Source: a virus | DNA: 58,961 nucleotides | IMG/VR virus record: IMGVR_UViG_3300046005_001450 | Coordinates: 1-58,961 of that record | Reading direction: 5' to 3' (one strand) | In this document: positions 1,568 to 42,387 of the stretch, one piece after another | How positions within the stretch are numbered: position 1 is the stretch's first letter | Layout of the letters: each line of letters starts with the position of its first letter | Position numbers and translations under genes: made by a program | Notes under the pieces: generated by a model | Seen by the model: only the letters and a program-made list of their open reading frames with translations | Database searches by the model: none | Told to the model about the DNA's origin: nothing

Positions 1568-3880
1568 ATGGCTAACAATCCTAACGATCCAGATTTTCAA
1601 AAAAATAATGAAGAACTAAATAGATTTAATGATTCCTTAAAAGAATCTATAGATTTATCGAGATCTTTGTCTAGAAATATTAAATCTGTTACGGATGAGC
1701 TTAAACTTTCTAAAGGAGCTAATAGTGAACTTTATAATGATTTAGGTAGATATAATGATGCTTTATCTAAAACCATTGGTTTATCTAAAAAATTAACTGA
1801 TGGACGATTAAAAGTAAAAGATGTAGAAAAATCTATTGCTAATATTGGGCAGACTTATGCCGATTATATGGCTCGAAACAATAAGTCATTTGAAGCAAGA
1901 GGTAGATTTACTTTAAGACAAAAAGACCTTCAAGAAGAACTTCTTAAATTAGAAGATAAAGAAATTAATAGAAGACTTAGAATTGGAGAAGCTGATGCTA
2001 AAATTGATGATTTACGACAACAACTAGCTGCTACTGAAGTCGCCCGCAGAAACACTAGAGAAACTGCTGATAGAGCCCTACAAACTCAAGCGATTCGAGA
2101 TATTAAAGCAAAAATTAAATATCAAGAAGATAATATAAAGATTTTAGAAAAAGATCAAAATCAAGAAGCAAAAATTACTGCTCAAAAACAACAAACTTTA
2201 GATAAAGTTGAAGATATAATAAAATCTCATAAAGGACTCCAAAAACAATATGAAGATGAAATAAAAAAACATGAAATTCTTCTTAAACTAGCAAAAGAAC
2301 AAGATACAGTAACTAATAGAATAAGTAACACATATAAAGACATATCAAAATTACTTAGCCCATTTACTGCAATATTTGCGTTTATTAAACAAATGGCGTT
2401 TGCCATATCTGATCAAACAGTAAAAATACAAAGAGGTTTAGTTAAAACTTATGATGAAGCACTTGTTATAAGACAAGAATTTAATGCTATTGCTGTTGCT
2501 TCTGGAGATATAGCAGTTACTACTGGAAGAATGGTTGCTGCTAATGCTGAGTTAGGAAAGCAATTAGGATACAACACCCAGTTTAGTGAAGACATGAACA
2601 CTGAGTTCATTAAGTTAACTAAAACACTTGGAATTAGTAATGAATCTGCTGGAGGATTAGCAAAACTTACTAAGATATCTGGACAAGAATTTAAAGATGT
2701 TAAAAACATCATTTATCAAACTACCCAACAACTCTCAGTTCAAAATGGACTTCAACAAGATCAAGTAGAAGTTATGGATGAAGTTGGTAAAATATCTGGT
2801 CAAACATTAGCAATGTTTAAAGGTAATGTACCTGCCCTAACAGAAGCTGTTGTTCAAGCTAGATTATTAGGTACTACTTTAGAAAGCGCTAAAAAATCCG
2901 CATCTGCTTTACTTGATTTTGAATCATCTATTGAAAATGAATTACAAGCCGAATTAATTACAGGAAGACAATTTAATTTAGAACGTGCTCGTGCTGCTGC
3001 TTTAACTGGAGATTTAACAACAGAAATGAAAGAGTTAGCAAATCAAGGAATTGATTTTAATAACTACTCTAACATGAACGTTATTGCTCAACAGAAGATA
3101 GCGGATATGATGGGTAAAACTACAGATGAACTTACCGATCAGCTATTAAAACAACAATATTTGGGCATGTCACATGAACAAATTGTTTCTATGAGTGGTG
3201 AGGAAGTAGCTAAAAAAGTAGAAGCATTAAATGCTCAAGAACAATTTAATCTTGCTATGGAAAAAATGCAGGATATTGTTACAAGCTTAGTAGGAGGTCC
3301 TTTAGGACAGTTAGTTGAAGCAATGGCTAGTGCACTTTCAAGTGCTGGAGGTTTATATGGTATGATGTTAGCTATTGCTGGGGTATCACTAGGGAAAACA
3401 CTAGCAACTTTAGCAACCTTAGCAATTGAATTAGAATTATCAGCTGCTGGCGCTATTGCTACTGCTTCTGCTATATCTTTTGGTCTTGCTGCTGTTGGTA
3501 TAGTAGCGGGAATTGCTGCTATGATGGGGGCATTTGACGATGCTAAAACTGATGCCACTCAACCTACATCTGCTGGAGATATGTATTCTGCTAAAGGTAA
3601 AACTATAATATCACCTAAAGAAGGTGGTTTATTTTCATTAAGCGATAATGATGAATTTGCTGCTGCTCCAGGATTAGGAGATATGATTAATAGACCAAAA
3701 CAACAAACCGCGGTTGTTCAAGATAATTCTGCCTTATTAAATGAATTAAAAGATTTAAACAAAAACACATTAATTACTAATCAACTTGTACAGCAAAGCA
3801 ATAATAAAAAATCTGACATATATATGGGACCAGATAAAGTAGGGACCTCATTGCTTAAAAGTAATTATAGCTTAGCTTAA
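1568..3880 (+). CDS. Tail tape measure protein
   Basis: 770 aa. This protein sets tail length and is threaded through the tube. Residues 1-~240 are almost continuous charged coiled-coil sequence rich in Lys, Glu, Gln and Asn. The middle is helical with alternating Ala/Gly. Residues ~593-655 form a long hydrophobic Ala/Gly/Leu stretch able to insert into a membrane, as in many tape measures. The C-terminus (SDIYMGPDKVGTSLLKSNYS) resembles the end of other phage tape measures. Position after the chaperone-like frames and before baseplate genes supports the call. The exact T4 counterpart (gp29) cannot be shown from sequence alone. Confidence 0.8.
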   Translation: MANNPNDPDFQKNNEELNRFNDSLKESIDLSRSLSRNIKSVTDELKLSKGANSELYNDLGRYNDALSKTIGLSKKLTDGRLKVKDVEKSIANIGQTYADYMARNNKSFEARGRFTLRQKDLQEELLKLEDKEINRRLRIGEADAKIDDLRQQLAATEVARRNTRETADRALQTQAIRDIKAKIKYQEDNIKILEKDQNQEAKITAQKQQTLDKVEDIIKSHKGLQKQYEDEIKKHEILLKLAKEQDTVTNRISNTYKDISKLLSPFTAIFAFIKQMAFAISDQTVKIQRGLVKTYDEALVIRQEFNAIAVASGDIAVTTGRMVAANAELGKQLGYNTQFSEDMNTEFIKLTKTLGISNESAGGLAKLTKISGQEFKDVKNIIYQTTQQLSVQNGLQQDQVEVMDEVGKISGQTLAMFKGNVPALTEAVVQARLLGTTLESAKKSASALLDFESSIENELQAELITGRQFNLERARAAALTGDLTTEMKELANQGIDFNNYSNMNVIAQQKIADMMGKTTDELTDQLLKQQYLGMSHEQIVSMSGEEVAKKVEALNAQEQFNLAMEKMQDIVTSLVGGPLGQLVEAMASALSSAGGLYGMMLAIAGVSLGKTLATLATLAIELELSAAGAIATASAISFGLAAVGIVAGIAAMMGAFDDAKTDATQPTSAGDMYSAKGKTIISPKEGGLFSLSDNDEFAAAPGLGDMINRPKQQTAVVQDNSALLNELKDLNKNTLITNQLVQQSNNKKSDIYMGPDKVGTSLLKSNYSLA

Positions 3881-19734: not shown

Positions 19735-20196
19735 ATGAAATTTCAATCAACAAAAGTCTTTGATGGTTACTCAACAGTATTTCGTCAATGGAGAGCAGAA
19801 GGCACTCACTGTAGTTTTCTTCATGGTTATGGTATTTCTTTTAAAATTGTATTTGAAGGAGAACTTGATGAAAGAAACTGGGTGTGGGACTTTGGAGGAA
19901 TGAAAAGAGCCAAAAACACTATTGATGGTATGCCTCCTAAAGCATGGATGGACCATATGTTCGATCACACTTATATTATTGCCGAAGATGACCCATTTTT
20001 ATTAAAAGCATTAGAAATGCATGGTACAGGTATAGCACAAGTTAGAGTAGTACCAGCTACAGGAGCAGAACAATTTGCTAAATTTATCTATGATAAAACT
20101 TCTGAGTTTATTAGAATTGAAACAGATAACAGAGTACGAGTAGTAAGCGTAGAATTTAAAGAACACAGTAAAAACTCAGCAATATACACAGAATAA
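19735..20196 (+). CDS. queD: QueD-like 6-carboxytetrahydropterin synthase, divergent
   Basis: 153 aa. In the standard pathway QueD converts dihydroneopterin triphosphate to 6-carboxytetrahydropterin on the way to preQ0. Recognisable features are THCSFLHG (catalytic Cys and one His), WVWDFGGMKRA, MFDHTYI (Asp-His pair) and VEFKEHSKNSAIY (Glu near the end). Two of the three usual zinc-binding His appear replaced: the first, in the AAH position, is Phe, and the second of HGH is Tyr. It is therefore a divergent member. Coupled with thioredoxin (1-base gap) and close to the TGT-like, QueC, QueE and FolE genes. Confidence 0.75.
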   Translation: MKFQSTKVFDGYSTVFRQWRAEGTHCSFLHGYGISFKIVFEGELDERNWVWDFGGMKRAKNTIDGMPPKAWMDHMFDHTYIIAEDDPFLLKALEMHGTGIAQVRVVPATGAEQFAKFIYDKTSEFIRIETDNRVRVVSVEFKEHSKNSAIYTE

Positions 20197-21849: not shown

Positions 21850-22773
21850 ATGTCTAAAAATCATGTAGTGGTTTCACTTTCAGGTGGAATGGATAGTAGC
21901 ACATTGTTACTACGTTGTTTAAAAGAATACTCATCTGTTACGGCCATAAGCTTTGACTATGGTCAAAAACACAGAGTAGAGCTAGAGAGAGCTCAATCGT
22001 TGGTAGATTATTTAAACGGTGCTATTAATGTTTCAACATTTGAACCTATTAAAGTAAACTATCGTCAAATCAAACTAGACGGATTAGTTGATCTACTAGA
22101 TTCAGCATTAGTAACAGGAGGTAAAGATGTACCAGAAGGTCATTACGAGCAAGACAATATGAAAGAAACAGTTGTTCCTAACAGAAACAAAATGTTTGCT
22201 TCTATTGCTCAAGCAGTAGCTTTATCCATTGCAAACCGTACAGAAGAGACTTGTGACATTGCTTTAGGTATTCACGCAGGTGATCATGCAATTTATCCTG
22301 ATTGTAGACAAGAATTTAGAGATGCAGATGATGCAGCCTTTAGAATTGGAAACTGGGATGCAGAAAGAGTAAATTATTTCTCACCTTATCTTCAAGGAGA
22401 TAAATTTGATATCTTAAAAGATGGAGAAGTATTATGTAAAGAGTTGGGATTAAATTTTGATGAAGTTTATTCAAGAACTAATACTTCGTATAAGCCAATT
22501 AAAATAGTAACTAGTGGATTTATACAGACATCCCCAGAAAATACAAACTGGACTTCACCTGTAGTGACTTGGTACTCAGATTATAAATCAGCATCTTCAG
22601 TTGAAAGAATAGAAGCATTTATCAAACTAGGAAGAAAAGATCCAGTTGCTTATGCAGACGAAACAGGACCAGTAACATGGGAGACTGCAAGAGATGCAGT
22701 TCAAAAAGTATTAACAGAACATAACCAACCCCAAACTGATGGTGTTAAGTGGACTGAAACAAGAACTTACTAA
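21850..22773 (+). CDS. queC: QueC-like 7-cyano-7-deazaguanine synthase, without zinc cluster
   Basis: 307 aa, longer than typical QueC (about 220-230). The N-terminal PP-loop SLSGGMDSSTLLLRCL binds ATP, and AISFDYGQKHRVELERA, VVPNRNKMFASIAQA and DIALGIHAGDHAIYPDCR follow in QueC order. QueC makes preQ0 from 7-carboxy-7-deazaguanine. The usual C-terminal zinc ligands (Cys then C-x2-C-x2-C) are absent: the matching stretch reads VYSRTNTSYKPI. About 80 extra C-terminal residues follow. It may be a divergent preQ0 synthase or an amidotransfer variant acting on deazaguanine. Confidence 0.75.
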   Translation: MSKNHVVVSLSGGMDSSTLLLRCLKEYSSVTAISFDYGQKHRVELERAQSLVDYLNGAINVSTFEPIKVNYRQIKLDGLVDLLDSALVTGGKDVPEGHYEQDNMKETVVPNRNKMFASIAQAVALSIANRTEETCDIALGIHAGDHAIYPDCRQEFRDADDAAFRIGNWDAERVNYFSPYLQGDKFDILKDGEVLCKELGLNFDEVYSRTNTSYKPIKIVTSGFIQTSPENTNWTSPVVTWYSDYKSASSVERIEAFIKLGRKDPVAYADETGPVTWETARDAVQKVLTEHNQPQTDGVKWTETRTY

Positions 22774-23288: not shown

Positions 23289-23376
23289 GAATCGGTTAGT
23301 GTCAACGGGAAAGTTCCTGCTAGGGTTAACATGGACGATAAGTCTGGATGAGGGTTCGAATCCCTCACCGATTCCA
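23289..23376 (+). ncRNA. tRNA-like element without an anticodon arm
   Basis: Perfect 8-bp acceptor stem GAATCGGT (23289-23296) with ACCGATTC (23367-23374). A canonical T arm directly abuts it: GAGGG-TTCGAAT-CCCTC, 23350-23366. C374, C375 and A376 read as a CCA. Scanning every 17-base window between them gives no 5-bp anticodon arm. Instead there is a helix 299-305/326-332 around the hairpin CGGGA-AAGT-TCCTG and a small GGAC/GTCT stem. The segments TCAACGGGA and GTCTGGATG resemble the tRNA-like domain of tmRNA. Possible tmRNA relative or decoy. Confidence 0.6.
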
Positions 23377-23402: not shown

Positions 23403-23759
23403 GGGGGTGCCTGGTTTTGACAGATTACAACTAATTAATACAATCAGCCAGAGAGATAACTGTAAACTAAGGTGAATTTAATTAAATGGCAAAAACACAA
23501 ACGGTGTAGTATCTCAAGGAGACAACGCACAAATCGAAGCTAACATGAACACAGTATTCTCTTTATTGAGAAACGAAGTATTGGCAGCAGCCTAAATTAC
23601 CCAAGATTTCTCTATTAGATTAAATAGAGTGGTGGTTTCGCTAACTTAACAGTTGGCCCCAGTTGAATGATACTCCAACTTTAAAACCGTATCAAATAAG
23701 CTGTATAAATTGTATTGACTAACGCAGTCTGGACGGGAGTTCGAATCTCCCCACCTCCA
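23403..23759 (+). ncRNA. ssrA: tmRNA (phage-encoded ssrA)
   Basis: Rescues stalled ribosomes by acting as tRNA then mRNA. The 5' end GGGGGTG (23403-23409) pairs with CACCTCC (23752-23758), the discriminator is A, and CCA is not encoded. The D-loop analogue is TGGTTTTGACAG and the T arm GGGAG-TTCGAAT-CTCCC. P2 pairs 23435-23444 with 23709-23718. A tag frame ends at the stop 23593-23595, encoding GDNAQIEANMNTVFSLLRNE then VLAAA if it resumes at GGA 23518. A 7-bp hairpin (23610-23616/23623-23629) and pseudoknot-like stems follow. No SmpB gene is in the window, so the host protein would serve. Confidence 0.88.
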
Positions 23760-23787
23760 CTAATTTTTTAACTCTAAATTAATCGTT

Positions 23788-26707: not shown

Positions 26708-27481
26708 ATGAAAAGAATAGAAGATTATAACAAAACACTTCCCATTGTAGAGCTTTATACAGCGGTACAGTCAGAAGGAAGTAGAGCAGGTTATCCAACC
26801 GTAGTAATCAGAACAACAGGCTGTACTCACAGATGTTATTTTGGTGAAGGTGGATGGTGCGATTCTTGGTACACAAGTATACATCCTGAGAAAGGACACA
26901 TTACTTTCCAAGACATTATTAACATGTATGATGCAAATCCTCACATCACAGAGATGATGTTAACAGGAGGATCACCTACAATGCATCCAGCATTAGTAAA
27001 CGAATTAACACATTTTGCACATGAAAGAAATATTTTCATTACAATTGAGACCGAAGGAAGTCATTTTCTTGAAACGGATTACCCAATTAATCTATTATCA
27101 ATCTCCCCTAAGTTCAGTAATTCAGTCCCTAAGATTGGCGTACTTACACCTCAAGGAGTCGTTACAGATGAAAAAATGATTAAACAGCATAACAAGCTAA
27201 GACTTAATTATGATGCAATTTCTAAATCAATTGCTTACCATTCTGACTATCATTTAAAACCAGTATGGGATGGAGAGGATCAAGAAGCATTAAAAGAAAT
27301 AATGGGATGTATTAAGATACTAGACATACCACAAGACAAAGTTTGGTTTATGCCAGCAGGAGATTCAAGAGAAGCTTTATTCAAATCATATCCTAAAATG
27401 TTTGACTGGGTGAGAGATAATGGTTATAGATTGACCTGGAGACCTCACATTATTGCATTTGAAGATCAAAGAGAAGTATAA
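26708..27481 (+). CDS. queE: 7-carboxy-7-deazaguanine synthase (radical SAM)
   Basis: 257 aa. Radical SAM enzyme converting 6-carboxytetrahydropterin to 7-carboxy-7-deazaguanine. The N-terminus IVELYTAVQSEGSRAGYPTV is typical QueE. The cluster motif TTGCTHRCYFGEGGWCDSWY has spacing C-x3-C-x7-C, with extra residues where the generic family has C-x3-C-x2-C. MMLTGGSPTM (SAM-binding GGxP) and TIETEGS follow. Together with FolE (27668), QueD and QueC it completes the route to preQ0. It overlaps the next small gene by 1 base. Confidence 0.9.
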   Translation: MKRIEDYNKTLPIVELYTAVQSEGSRAGYPTVVIRTTGCTHRCYFGEGGWCDSWYTSIHPEKGHITFQDIINMYDANPHITEMMLTGGSPTMHPALVNELTHFAHERNIFITIETEGSHFLETDYPINLLSISPKFSNSVPKIGVLTPQGVVTDEKMIKQHNKLRLNYDAISKSIAYHSDYHLKPVWDGEDQEALKEIMGCIKILDIPQDKVWFMPAGDSREALFKSYPKMFDWVRDNGYRLTWRPHIIAFEDQREV

Positions 27482-40255: not shown

Positions 40256-40464
40256 TGGAACAAATGATTAAAGTAAACGATGACTTGTTCTTAATAAAAA
40301 GAACAACTAACGAATTATATGAACGTTTTGCAAGTTTATGGAATGAAACATCTATAAACCACAAAACATTTAAAAAAGATGGCCGAATGTACTTCTGTGA
40401 ACTTATAGAAGAGGCCCAAATTATAGAAGATAATATTAACCAAAAACAAGAAGAAAATGATTAA
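40255..40464 (+). CDS. Unknown small protein between clamp and GroES (69 aa)
   Basis: Overlaps the clamp stop by 1 base and the GroES start by 8 bases. Short alpha/beta protein (MIKVNDDLFLIKRTTNELYE), with an acidic Gln/Glu-rich end. No recognisable motif. Tight coupling suggests a small accessory protein of the replication or chaperone unit. Confidence 0.65.
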   Translation: MEQMIKVNDDLFLIKRTTNELYERFASLWNETSINHKTFKKDGRMYFCELIEEAQIIEDNINQKQEEND

Positions 40465-40753
40465 AGCAGTATGGGATGCCATAATTGTAAAGGCAGACGA
40501 GAAAAATGACCGTATGCATGGGAAATTTATTATTCCCGATTTAAGCCAAGAAAAAGCAATAATTGGAACAGTTACCGATGTAGGACCAGGAAAATGGAAT
40601 GCAGCTGGAACCGAAAGAGTTCCTATGTCCTTTAAAATAGGGGATAGAGTGTTATTACCTCAAGTAGGATTAACCAAACTAGAGTGGGATGGAATAGAAT
40701 ACTTAGCAACCTCAGAGGCTACAGTATTAGGATTAATTGAAGAACAAAACTAA
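40457..40753 (+). CDS. groES: Co-chaperonin GroES
   Basis: 98 aa, the standard length. It has the N-terminal strand AVWDAIIVKADE, the mobile-loop region (residues ~16-32, KNDRMHGKFIIPDLSQEK), IIGTVTDVGPGKWN, FKIGDRVLLPQVGLTKLEWD and the closing YLATSEATVLGLI. Caps the chaperonin chamber. In T4 the phage co-chaperonin gp31 is needed to fold the capsid protein; here the partner GroEL is encoded 2 bases downstream. Confidence 0.93.
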   Translation: MIKAVWDAIIVKADEKNDRMHGKFIIPDLSQEKAIIGTVTDVGPGKWNAAGTERVPMSFKIGDRVLLPQVGLTKLEWDGIEYLATSEATVLGLIEEQN

Positions 40754-40755
40754 AT

Positions 40756-42387
40756 ATGAAAACAGCCTTTAATCAAGAAGCTAAAGAGAAATTAGCAAAG
40801 GGTATTAAAACCGTAGCAGATGCTGTTGGTTCTACCTTAGGTCCATACGGACGAAATGTATTATTCCTTGACGAATATGGAAGTGTACGTAGTACAAAAG
40901 ATGGTGTAACTGTAGCTAAAGAGCTTAAAAATCTTGAGGATCCTATTGAACATATGGGTGCTCAAATGATAAAAGAAGCATCTATTAAAACGGCTGATAA
41001 AGCCGGAGATGGAACTACTACATCAACTGTATTAGCTAATGAGTTAATTCAAAAAGCATTTAGCAGTATAAACACTAATACTAATGTAGTATCTGTAAAA
41101 AAAGGTATTGAAGCCGGAGCTGCTGAGGTGTTAGCAGGTTTAAAACAAATTAAACGTGAAATTACTTCTCCTGAACAAATTAAACAGGTAGCTACTATTT
41201 CTGCTAACAATGATGAAGAAATTGGAGCATTAGTTGCTGAAGCAATGGAATTAGTAGGACAAGATGGTGTGGTAACGGTTGAAGAATCTAAAACAGGAGA
41301 AACATCATTAGAAACAGTTGAAGGTATCCAATTCGATAGAGGATACAAATCAATGTATTTTGTAACTGATAATAACTCAATGTCAGCCACATTACAAAAC
41401 CCAGTAATCTTAATTTATAACGGACGTTTAGTATCAGTTAAAGAATTACTTCCAATTCTTGAAGGTGCTTCTCAAACAGATAGTTCATTATTAATCATTG
41501 CTGAAGATATTGATGGTGAAGCATTATCTACGTTGATCGTAAATAAAATGAGAGGTATGTTAAAAGTAGTAGCAGTTAAAGCTCCTGATTTTGGAGATAG
41601 ACGTGCTGCTGTTTTAGAAGATATTGCTACTGTAACTGGTGGAACTGTAGTAACACCTGAAAAAGGTATGAAATTAGACAGATTTAATTCTGAATGGTTT
41701 GGTACTTCTAGAGTTGTAACTGTAACTAAAGATACTACTACAATTGTAGATGGTAGAGGTGAAGAAACAGCTGTTCAAGAACGCGTATCTGAACTTAAAG
41801 AGCAAATCAACAAGGCAACCTCAGCGTTTGAAAAAGAACATTTACAAGAACGTTTAGGTAAATTAGTAGGTGGTGTAGCCGTAATCAACATTGGTGGTGC
41901 TACTGAAACCGAAATTAAAGAGAAAAAAGACCGTATCGATGATGCTTTACAAGCAACAAAAGCTGCTTTAGAAGAAGGTTTATTGCCTGGTGGTGGTATT
42001 GCTTTATTAGAAGCTAGAGAAGGAATTACTCAAAACAAAACAGACGGAGGTGATTTTAACTTAGGTAAAAGAATCGTTTACACTGCTTGTGGTGCTCCAT
42101 TCTTAAAAATCCTTACAAACGCTGGTATTGAAACTACAAATGAAATAGTTTTTGATCTTCGTAAAGCTAGAGAGGATAACCCAGAAACAGGTCGTACATT
42201 TGGGTATAATATAAAAACAGAAACAGTAACAGATATGTTTGAAGCTGGTATTATCGATCCGATGAAAGTAGTACGTACCGCGTTAGCAAATGCTGTATCT
42301 GTTGCCGGGACTGTATTAATAACAGAATGTGTACTTTATAACGAACCTAAAAAAGATAAAGATGATCAACAACACCCTATGGGTTGA
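40756..42387 (+). CDS. groEL: Chaperonin GroEL, phage-encoded
   Basis: 543 aa, full length. Equatorial ATP-site features: VGSTLGPYGRNVLF, TKDGVTVAKE, AGDGTTTSTVLA, and GLLPGGGIALLEA. Apical-domain sequence such as GYKSMYFVTDNNSMSATLQN and KAPDFGDRRAAVLEDIA is well preserved. The C-terminus ends KDDQQHPMG, without the repeated GGM tail of most bacterial GroELs, so chamber lining differs. Probably folds phage proteins (capsid or replisome). Overlaps the clamp-loader start by 26 bases. Codon use looks like the rest of the phage, so the acquisition is not recent. Confidence 0.95.
   Translation: MKTAFNQEAKEKLAKGIKTVADAVGSTLGPYGRNVLFLDEYGSVRSTKDGVTVAKELKNLEDPIEHMGAQMIKEASIKTADKAGDGTTTSTVLANELIQKAFSSINTNTNVVSVKKGIEAGAAEVLAGLKQIKREITSPEQIKQVATISANNDEEIGALVAEAMELVGQDGVVTVEESKTGETSLETVEGIQFDRGYKSMYFVTDNNSMSATLQNPVILIYNGRLVSVKELLPILEGASQTDSSLLIIAEDIDGEALSTLIVNKMRGMLKVVAVKAPDFGDRRAAVLEDIATVTGGTVVTPEKGMKLDRFNSEWFGTSRVVTVTKDTTTIVDGRGEETAVQERVSELKEQINKATSAFEKEHLQERLGKLVGGVAVINIGGATETEIKEKKDRIDDALQATKAALEEGLLPGGGIALLEAREGITQNKTDGGDFNLGKRIVYTACGAPFLKILTNAGIETTNEIVFDLRKAREDNPETGRTFGYNIKTETVTDMFEAGIIDPMKVVRTALANAVSVAGTVLITECVLYNEPKKDKDDQQHPMG

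Follow-up and report, generated by a model that had tools for sequence, protein, structure and literature searches.

The 58,961-nt stretch of viral DNA analysed here (IMG/VR record IMGVR_UViG_3300046005_001450, hereafter the window) carries a tmRNA gene of the one-piece form on its plus strand (23403–23759), delimited by the Rfam model RF00023, by acceptor pairing for the ends and by helix covariation. RF00023 aligned with positions 23403–23762 (+) along model positions 1–374 (77.9 bits, E value 1.5e-28; gathering score used as cut-off, 47) and was the sole Rfam match above cut-off in the whole window, so that the full-length tmRNA proposed in the original prediction is borne out by a covariance model. 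ARAGORN, run over the window, called no tmRNA.

The phage encodes T4-like proteins, namely a family B polymerase, gp32-like and UvsX-like proteins and a T4 baseplate protein, together with a clamp-loader match below cut-off; its polymerase is 36.9 % identical to the best listed phage record. From the relatives described below, we infer a Bacteroidota host. The Bacteroidota-type promoter pattern occurs four times on the plus strand and nine times on the minus strand, against approximately 3.7 occurrences in plus-strand shuffles, and carries no inference about the host. Queuosine-type genes (PTPS/QueD-like, QueC-like and radical SAM) and a phage GroES/GroEL pair are also present (19735–20196, 21850–22773, 26708–27481 and 40457–42387). 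Just 5′ of the tmRNA gene lies a tRNA-like element (23289–23374) with an acceptor stem (GAATCGG/CCGATTC), a T arm (GAGGG/CCCTC) and two odd arms. It drew no ARAGORN call and only weak Rfam matches under cut-off (permuted tmRNA, 25.7 bits; tRNA-Sec, 20.2 bits); it is 85.5 % identical in two related loci (L105 and L125) with its arm sequences changed, and from its sequence it may be a real, unusual RNA.

The acceptor stem of the tmRNA comprises seven pairs, formed by a 5′ strand GGGGGTG (23403–23409) and a 3′ strand CACCTCC (23752–23758) followed by A73 at 23759, exactly the pairing and gene end first proposed. CCA is not encoded (A73 is followed by CTA), and the third pair is a G-U, with G3 on the 5′ strand belonging to the alanine identity pair G3-U70. 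U70 opposite G3, and A73, recurred in all 105 delimited tmRNAs, the window included; the delimiting script accepted only GGG with a seven-pair acceptor stem, which fixed G3 and the pairing in this set but left U70 and A73 free to vary.

The internal helices were assessed in an alignment of 30 sequences, consisting of the window and 29 sequences picked by hand, most of them among the shorter of the 74 distinct tmRNAs that had been delimited. Across the 39 proposed pairs, 97.3 % of cells pair and 19 pairs show both-sided changes (7.9 in shuffles); all 500 shuffles fell short on each of the five measures used, and sliding the helix partners by one to three columns reduced pairing to 36–54 %. Both the T arm and P2, which had been read from the letters alone, were found and both display both-sided changes. 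The 5′ strand of P2 (AATACAAT and CAGC, 23437–23448) pairs with 23709–23716 and 23700–23703, with both-sided changes at 6/8 pairs of P2a and none in the invariant P2b. The T arm (GGGAG-TTCGAAT-CTCCC, 23735–23751) is paired in 100 % of cells and has both-sided changes at 3/5 pairs. P2 is thus backed by covariation. In the part of the 3′ domain that could be resolved, two hairpins were discerned: H1, 3′ of the tag (CTCTATT...AATAGAG, 23610–23629; both-sided changes at 5/7 pairs), and H2 (CTAAC...GTTGG, 23641–23656; both-sided changes at 4/5 pairs, with pairing in just 83 % of cells). Ahead of the tag, the PK1 region holds the motif CAGAGAGATAACTGTAAACTAAGGTGAA (23449–23476) with a CAG/CTG hairpin. 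This first PK1 stem does not vary among the 30 sequences, and the conservation of the motif in our set is by selection, because most of it served as the search pattern. No second PK1 stem was found in the alignment of relatives; a GAGATA/TATCTC pairing with the tag region is available in the window, but it is not kept in the relatives and was rejected.

The resume codon of RF00023 (GCA, model positions 93–95) aligns with GGC at 23488–23490, giving a tag frame of 35 codons plus TAA (23488–23595, +; GKNTNGVVSQGDNAQIEANMNTVFSLLRNEVLAAA), a reading that also draws on the relatives and on peptide-level selection. Thirty-seven open codons precede the TAA at 23593–23595, in line with the original prediction of more than 35, and the frame cannot extend much further 5′ because the nearest in-frame upstream stop (TAA, 23479–23481) lies three codons before the GGC. 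The predicted ending NEVLAAA was likewise recovered. The proposed start was not: resumption had been placed at GGA 23518 with a tag of approximately 25 residues, a codon that is the 11th of the 35-codon frame given by the covariance model. Nor does the model place the resume codon just a few codons ahead of the stop. The AAA at the C-terminus (23584–23592), which includes the terminal AA that recurs in most of the relatives' tags, likely constitutes a proteolytic signal, judging by known ssrA tags.

AlphaFold2 modelled the tag of the window as a single helix (residues 10–34, mean pLDDT 77.9); the program is prone to predict helix for isolated peptides. Comparison of this tag with solved protein chains returned no match, and 18 tags compared with PHROGs gave no convincing match, with two weak single ones (E values 0.08 and 0.11). 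Searching public phages with the window tag (tblastn, E value up to 10) returned 29 records, all of them Flavobacterium phages, and no other protein.

Relatives were collected from IMG/VR with a strict PK1 pattern (37 stretches) and a relaxed one (at least 119 stretches). The resulting 129 tag loci comprise 124 from IMG/VR, four public phage loci and the window; 126 of the tags are complete, the other three being cut by contig ends. The complete tags reduce to 85 distinct DNAs and 82 distinct peptides, and we give counts on distinct DNA, which removes IMG/VR contigs that repeat public phages. Public records place in this group the Flavobacterium psychrophilum phages (Fipvunavirus; FpV4 group), the Cellulophaga phages Calle_1 and phi38:1 (Callevirus) and phi14:2 (Crassvirales). 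RF00023 scored above cut-off in 18 of 20 loci chosen from the PK1-pattern set.

All 126 complete tags are 24–49 residues long, with 35 the commonest length (29/85 distinct tags), and each begins with GGC, GGA or GAC (42, 25 and 18 distinct tags, respectively) 11–13 nt past AACTAAGGTGA. Part of this uniformity is due to selection, since the relaxed pattern required GRMAA 10–16 nt past the motif and our script sought G[AG][AC]A in that interval; the same start codons, in the same place, nevertheless occur in the strict-pattern loci (n=37), whose pattern left the start free. In all 85 distinct tags, both other frames are closed. The tags end in AA in 79 cases, VA in five and GV in one, the last being the Calle_1/phi38:1 tag.

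Both tmRNA ends were delimited in 105/126 complete-tag loci. Among the 21 that our script left undelimited (including L027, L061, L070, L088, L094 and L113), some are cut by contig ends and some may carry T-loop introns. Several further RNAs were noticed at or near the loci examined. One long-tag tmRNA, cut by its locus end, lies near a GOLLD RNA with tRNA genes inside and beside it (L038, 6195–6798; RF02032, 176 bits). The crAss-like phage cr128_1 has an apparent unannotated tmRNA with the short tag GNTYRAAA (L007, 2700–3420; identified by reading, with no Rfam tmRNA), a group I intron near its T arm (RF00028, 3099–3368) and a 3′ hairpin stretch shared with the window (84 % over 64 nt). In Lactococcus phage AM3, the hairpin-GTGGTGG stretch of the window tmRNA (23593–23635) is found outside a tmRNA (L009, 3001–3041), approximately 80 nt ahead of a separate one at 3123–3471.

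Within the long tags we identified a conserved inner module, which in the window is QIEANMNTVFSLL (23530–23568, +), on the basis of conserved residues with varying synonymous codons and of a core-only scan. The residues ANM occur in 84/85 distinct tags, within or near Q-[IV]-x-A-N-M-x-x-V-x-[SN]-[LI]-[LI]. When these 84 are aligned on ANM, the A, N and M are invariant, as is Q at −3 (84/84), and V at +5 is found in 83/84; L or I occupies position +8 and, apart from one M, position +9, and 79/84 have I or V at −2. The codons vary beneath these residues: Ala is GCT in 67, GCA in 10, GCC in six and GCG in one, Asn is AAC in 52 and AAT in 32, Gln is CAA in 79 and CAG in five, and at least six codons are used at +8. 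Blocks flanking the core recur in varied combinations (e.g. GDDTQEEASYEVELAVAA, NGGTEVKS.DII and VVSQGDNAQ) and look as if they have been exchanged cassette-like. The sole distinct tag without the core (L019, 2430–2793; 49 residues, VAIAA end) keeps the same RNA frame and could serve as a natural test case for the role of the core.

Selection acts at the peptide level on the tag. For 29 independent closest pairs, the in-frame pN/pS was 0.50 (pS 0.117, pN 0.058; Fisher p 6e-7), compared with 0.77 and 1.03 in the shifted frames, and the segment upstream of the core ATG taken alone gave 0.59; 355 non-independent pairs gave 0.55 in frame and 0.95 and 1.23 shifted. The distance from the resume codon to the ATG of the core takes eight values between 21 and 57 nt, and the two are in frame in 84/85 distinct tags.

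Scanning IMG/VR for the core only, with a degenerate DNA pattern free of RNA context, returned at least 119 stretches, and 29 new loci were found among those listed. By eye, 27 of these 29 read as tmRNA-type tags, some with other PK1 variants and one of 50 residues (L348), and a TTCGA T-loop sequence lies within 300 nt past the stop in 17/27; the other two (L323 and L344) are inside long unrelated ORFs. RF00023 scored above cut-off in 13 of 20 loci made up of 19 of the 29 new ones and L038, some of them truncated. Over 1.19 Mb of phage DNA, the core motif matched 125 times, 124 times in listed tags and once in a truncated tag (L098), and hence no source protein for the module was seen in that DNA. 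Phages with the module belong to at least four groups (T4-like, Fipvunavirus, Callevirus and crAss-like).

The core module is predicted to be helical. Conservation is not significantly concentrated on one helix face (moment 4.62, permuted mean 2.94; p 0.13). The mean hydrophobic moment of 81 cores is 0.37 against 0.24 for shuffled sequences, and that of the window core is reached by 14 % of its own shuffles. A survey for a partner gene beside the tmRNA, for which flanks of 3 kb on either side were available at just 24 loci, gave a best gene cluster in 21/85 loci, too few for a partner.

For comparison, host tags were read with ARAGORN at 43 of the 44 Bacteroidota tmRNA loci examined. All 43 tags are nine residues long; 24 are GENNYALAA, one of these with a double stop, and the others are close variants, in agreement with the expectation of GENNYALAA-like host tags of approximately nine residues; 15 of the 44 genomes came from a GE[NT]NYALAA-type pattern search and are thus tag-selected, while the other 29 were the top-scoring among 40 of one order drawn regardless of tag. 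At 35 residues, the window tag is approximately four times longer than the tails in these sampled hosts and, with its LAAA end, falls outside the host-type GENNYALAA class with its YALAA-like end; the description of an unusually long, atypical phage tag therefore stands. The phage and host RNAs share the one-piece form, and host tags, like phage tags, begin G-x-x-N or similar; one host RNA (L254) also resembles the phage tmRNA in its GGC resume codon past AAAC, its AA end and the absence of an encoded CCA. They differ in that the host tag has nine residues against 24–49 with a conserved module in the phages, and in that many of the phage RNAs have a shorter 3′ domain. The relaxed phage pattern matched none of 395 genomes sampled from the phylum of a Flavobacterium, and the strict pattern matched nothing in the genome_contigs collection. 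Short host-type tags occurred in eight stretches of viral contigs, and the one that was read (L313) looks like host flank. SmpB (PF01668) was found in none of 40 phage records, window included, many of which may be fragments, and in 10/14 genomes used as a control; the phages presumably rely on host SmpB, given its absence from these records.

We consider it probable that the locus encodes a functional phage one-piece tmRNA that appends a two-part tag, consisting of a host-like proteolytic end and a probable binding module. On this model, the host enzyme would presumably charge the RNA with alanine via the G3-U70 acceptor pair, and the RNA would act with host SmpB, enter ribosomes stalled on broken mRNA and move translation to the GGC at 23488. 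Ala and the 35-residue tag would be appended, with the ribosome stopping at the TAA at 23593; a tagged peptide of the Calle_1/phi38:1 type would accordingly read ...A-GNNTNAVNAQIEANMEAVNAILNLEVAVGV, with G after a single A. The AA end would keep the rescued protein a ClpXP-type substrate, while the approximately 26 extra residues between the host-like start and the AA end hold the conserved module, most likely a second binding site for an adaptor, chaperone or protease of either host or phage. The phage would thereby control the speed or place of degradation of rescued proteins in the infected cell. The combination of a long tag with an inner conserved segment suggests, at the level of sequence, that the phage steers the fate of these proteins.

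The strongest competing explanation, which we regard as unlikely, is that the module slows or blocks degradation, or that tagged peptides are decoys occupying host ClpXP; the phage would then rescue ribosomes yet spare its own truncated proteins or jam host proteolysis. In keeping with this, the tags end mostly in VAA (43/85) and just nine of the 85 in LAA, unlike the host ALAA, and a molecule like the small DS6A tmRNA has been reported to be a strong tmRNA inhibitor (PMC4131195). The terminal AA kept in nearly all distinct tags (79/85), however, resembles a retained degron.

Less probable again is that the extra codons act as a spacer in the RNA, the 3′ pseudoknot domain having been partly lost and the longer frame keeping the ring wide enough to pass round the ribosome, with the peptide irrelevant. 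The distance from the tag stop to the T loop is indeed 106–261 nt in 74 distinct phage RNAs, against approximately 250 nt in one host RNA (L254), but tag length and 3′ length are uncorrelated (Spearman 0.06, p 0.60, n=74), and a spacer would not account for core residues that are fixed over varying codons or for the low in-frame pN/pS.

It is highly improbable that the tag begins at GGA 23518, or later, where ARAGORN places its start in relatives. Among the 76 phage loci with a tmRNA call, ARAGORN put the start later than the codon used here in 67 and at that codon in nine, but the covariance model and the constant position of G[AG][AC] in relatives contradict the later start, as does the protein-level conservation upstream of the core ATG, and some relatives have no room for a GGA-like start (e.g. 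L021, whose entire tag is GKQIDANMAKVRSLITSEEVLMAA). For the Calle_1 tag, the program starts eight residues late (22 vs 30 residues), and it made no tmRNA call in 53/129 phage loci (the window's own among them); phage annotations will therefore understate such tags.

The remaining two readings are more improbable still. Were the conserved ATG of the core the start of an ordinary micro-ORF (MNTVFSLLRNEVLAAA in the window), with the tmRNA frame a mere leader, the invariance of M in 84/84 would be explained, but not that of the equally fixed Q, A and N upstream with their synonymous changes, nor a frame kept from the resume codon across all eight spacings. A by-product of prophage integration at the host tmRNA gene, in which a spare copy restores an insertion-broken host gene, is the reading that its authors suggested for Maribacter phage Panino, and tmRNA genes are known integration sites (PMC11590407); the tmRNA of Panino differs from that of the window in being permuted (RF04321). 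Against this, the phage tag is unlike every host tag read, and there is no integrase among the 49 window ORFs scanned, a part of its total.

Individual long tags have precedents elsewhere, mycobacteriophages and mycoplasmas among them, so the novelty here lies in the conserved module and its spread and not in length alone. A 25-residue tag used as a query for comparison gave no match in our search. Phage tmRNA genes as such have been described in mycobacteriophages (Bxz1 group and Wildcat), phage G and DS6A, the last with little beyond the tRNA-like domain (PMC4131195), and the tmRNA of Calle_1, here assigned to the long-tag group, is mentioned in the accessible part of one paper without its tag (PMC8776804). 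A Melnitz-like methylophage also encodes a tmRNA, but of a permuted two-piece, alphaproteobacterial type with no long tag described in the available text, and its authors propose translation upkeep or host-protein degradation; one survey counted tmRNAs in 402/18,146 phage genomes (PMC9004378). In a 2025 database with 79 phage tmRNA sequences, the commonest tag length is 10 and very short tags are reported, and its results section names no long-tag phage group (PMC11915505); in one review, tag lengths are given as '8-5', which is probably a printing error (PMC8327144). Within the literature searched, largely open-access papers, we found no description of long phage tags with a conserved module.

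Phage tmRNAs have long been catalogued without a known purpose, and a conserved tag sequence specific to phages offers a handle on what the phage gains from them. Since the long-tag group includes public phages isolated on named hosts (phi38:1, Calle_1, phi14:2 and the FpV4 group), the question is directly testable. Beyond the two-part tag itself, we tentatively raise the possibility that trans-translation has become a sorting system in these Bacteroidota phages, with the module an address read by a specific receptor alongside the degron. If this is true, every failed protein in the infected cell would bear a viral address plus a degron.
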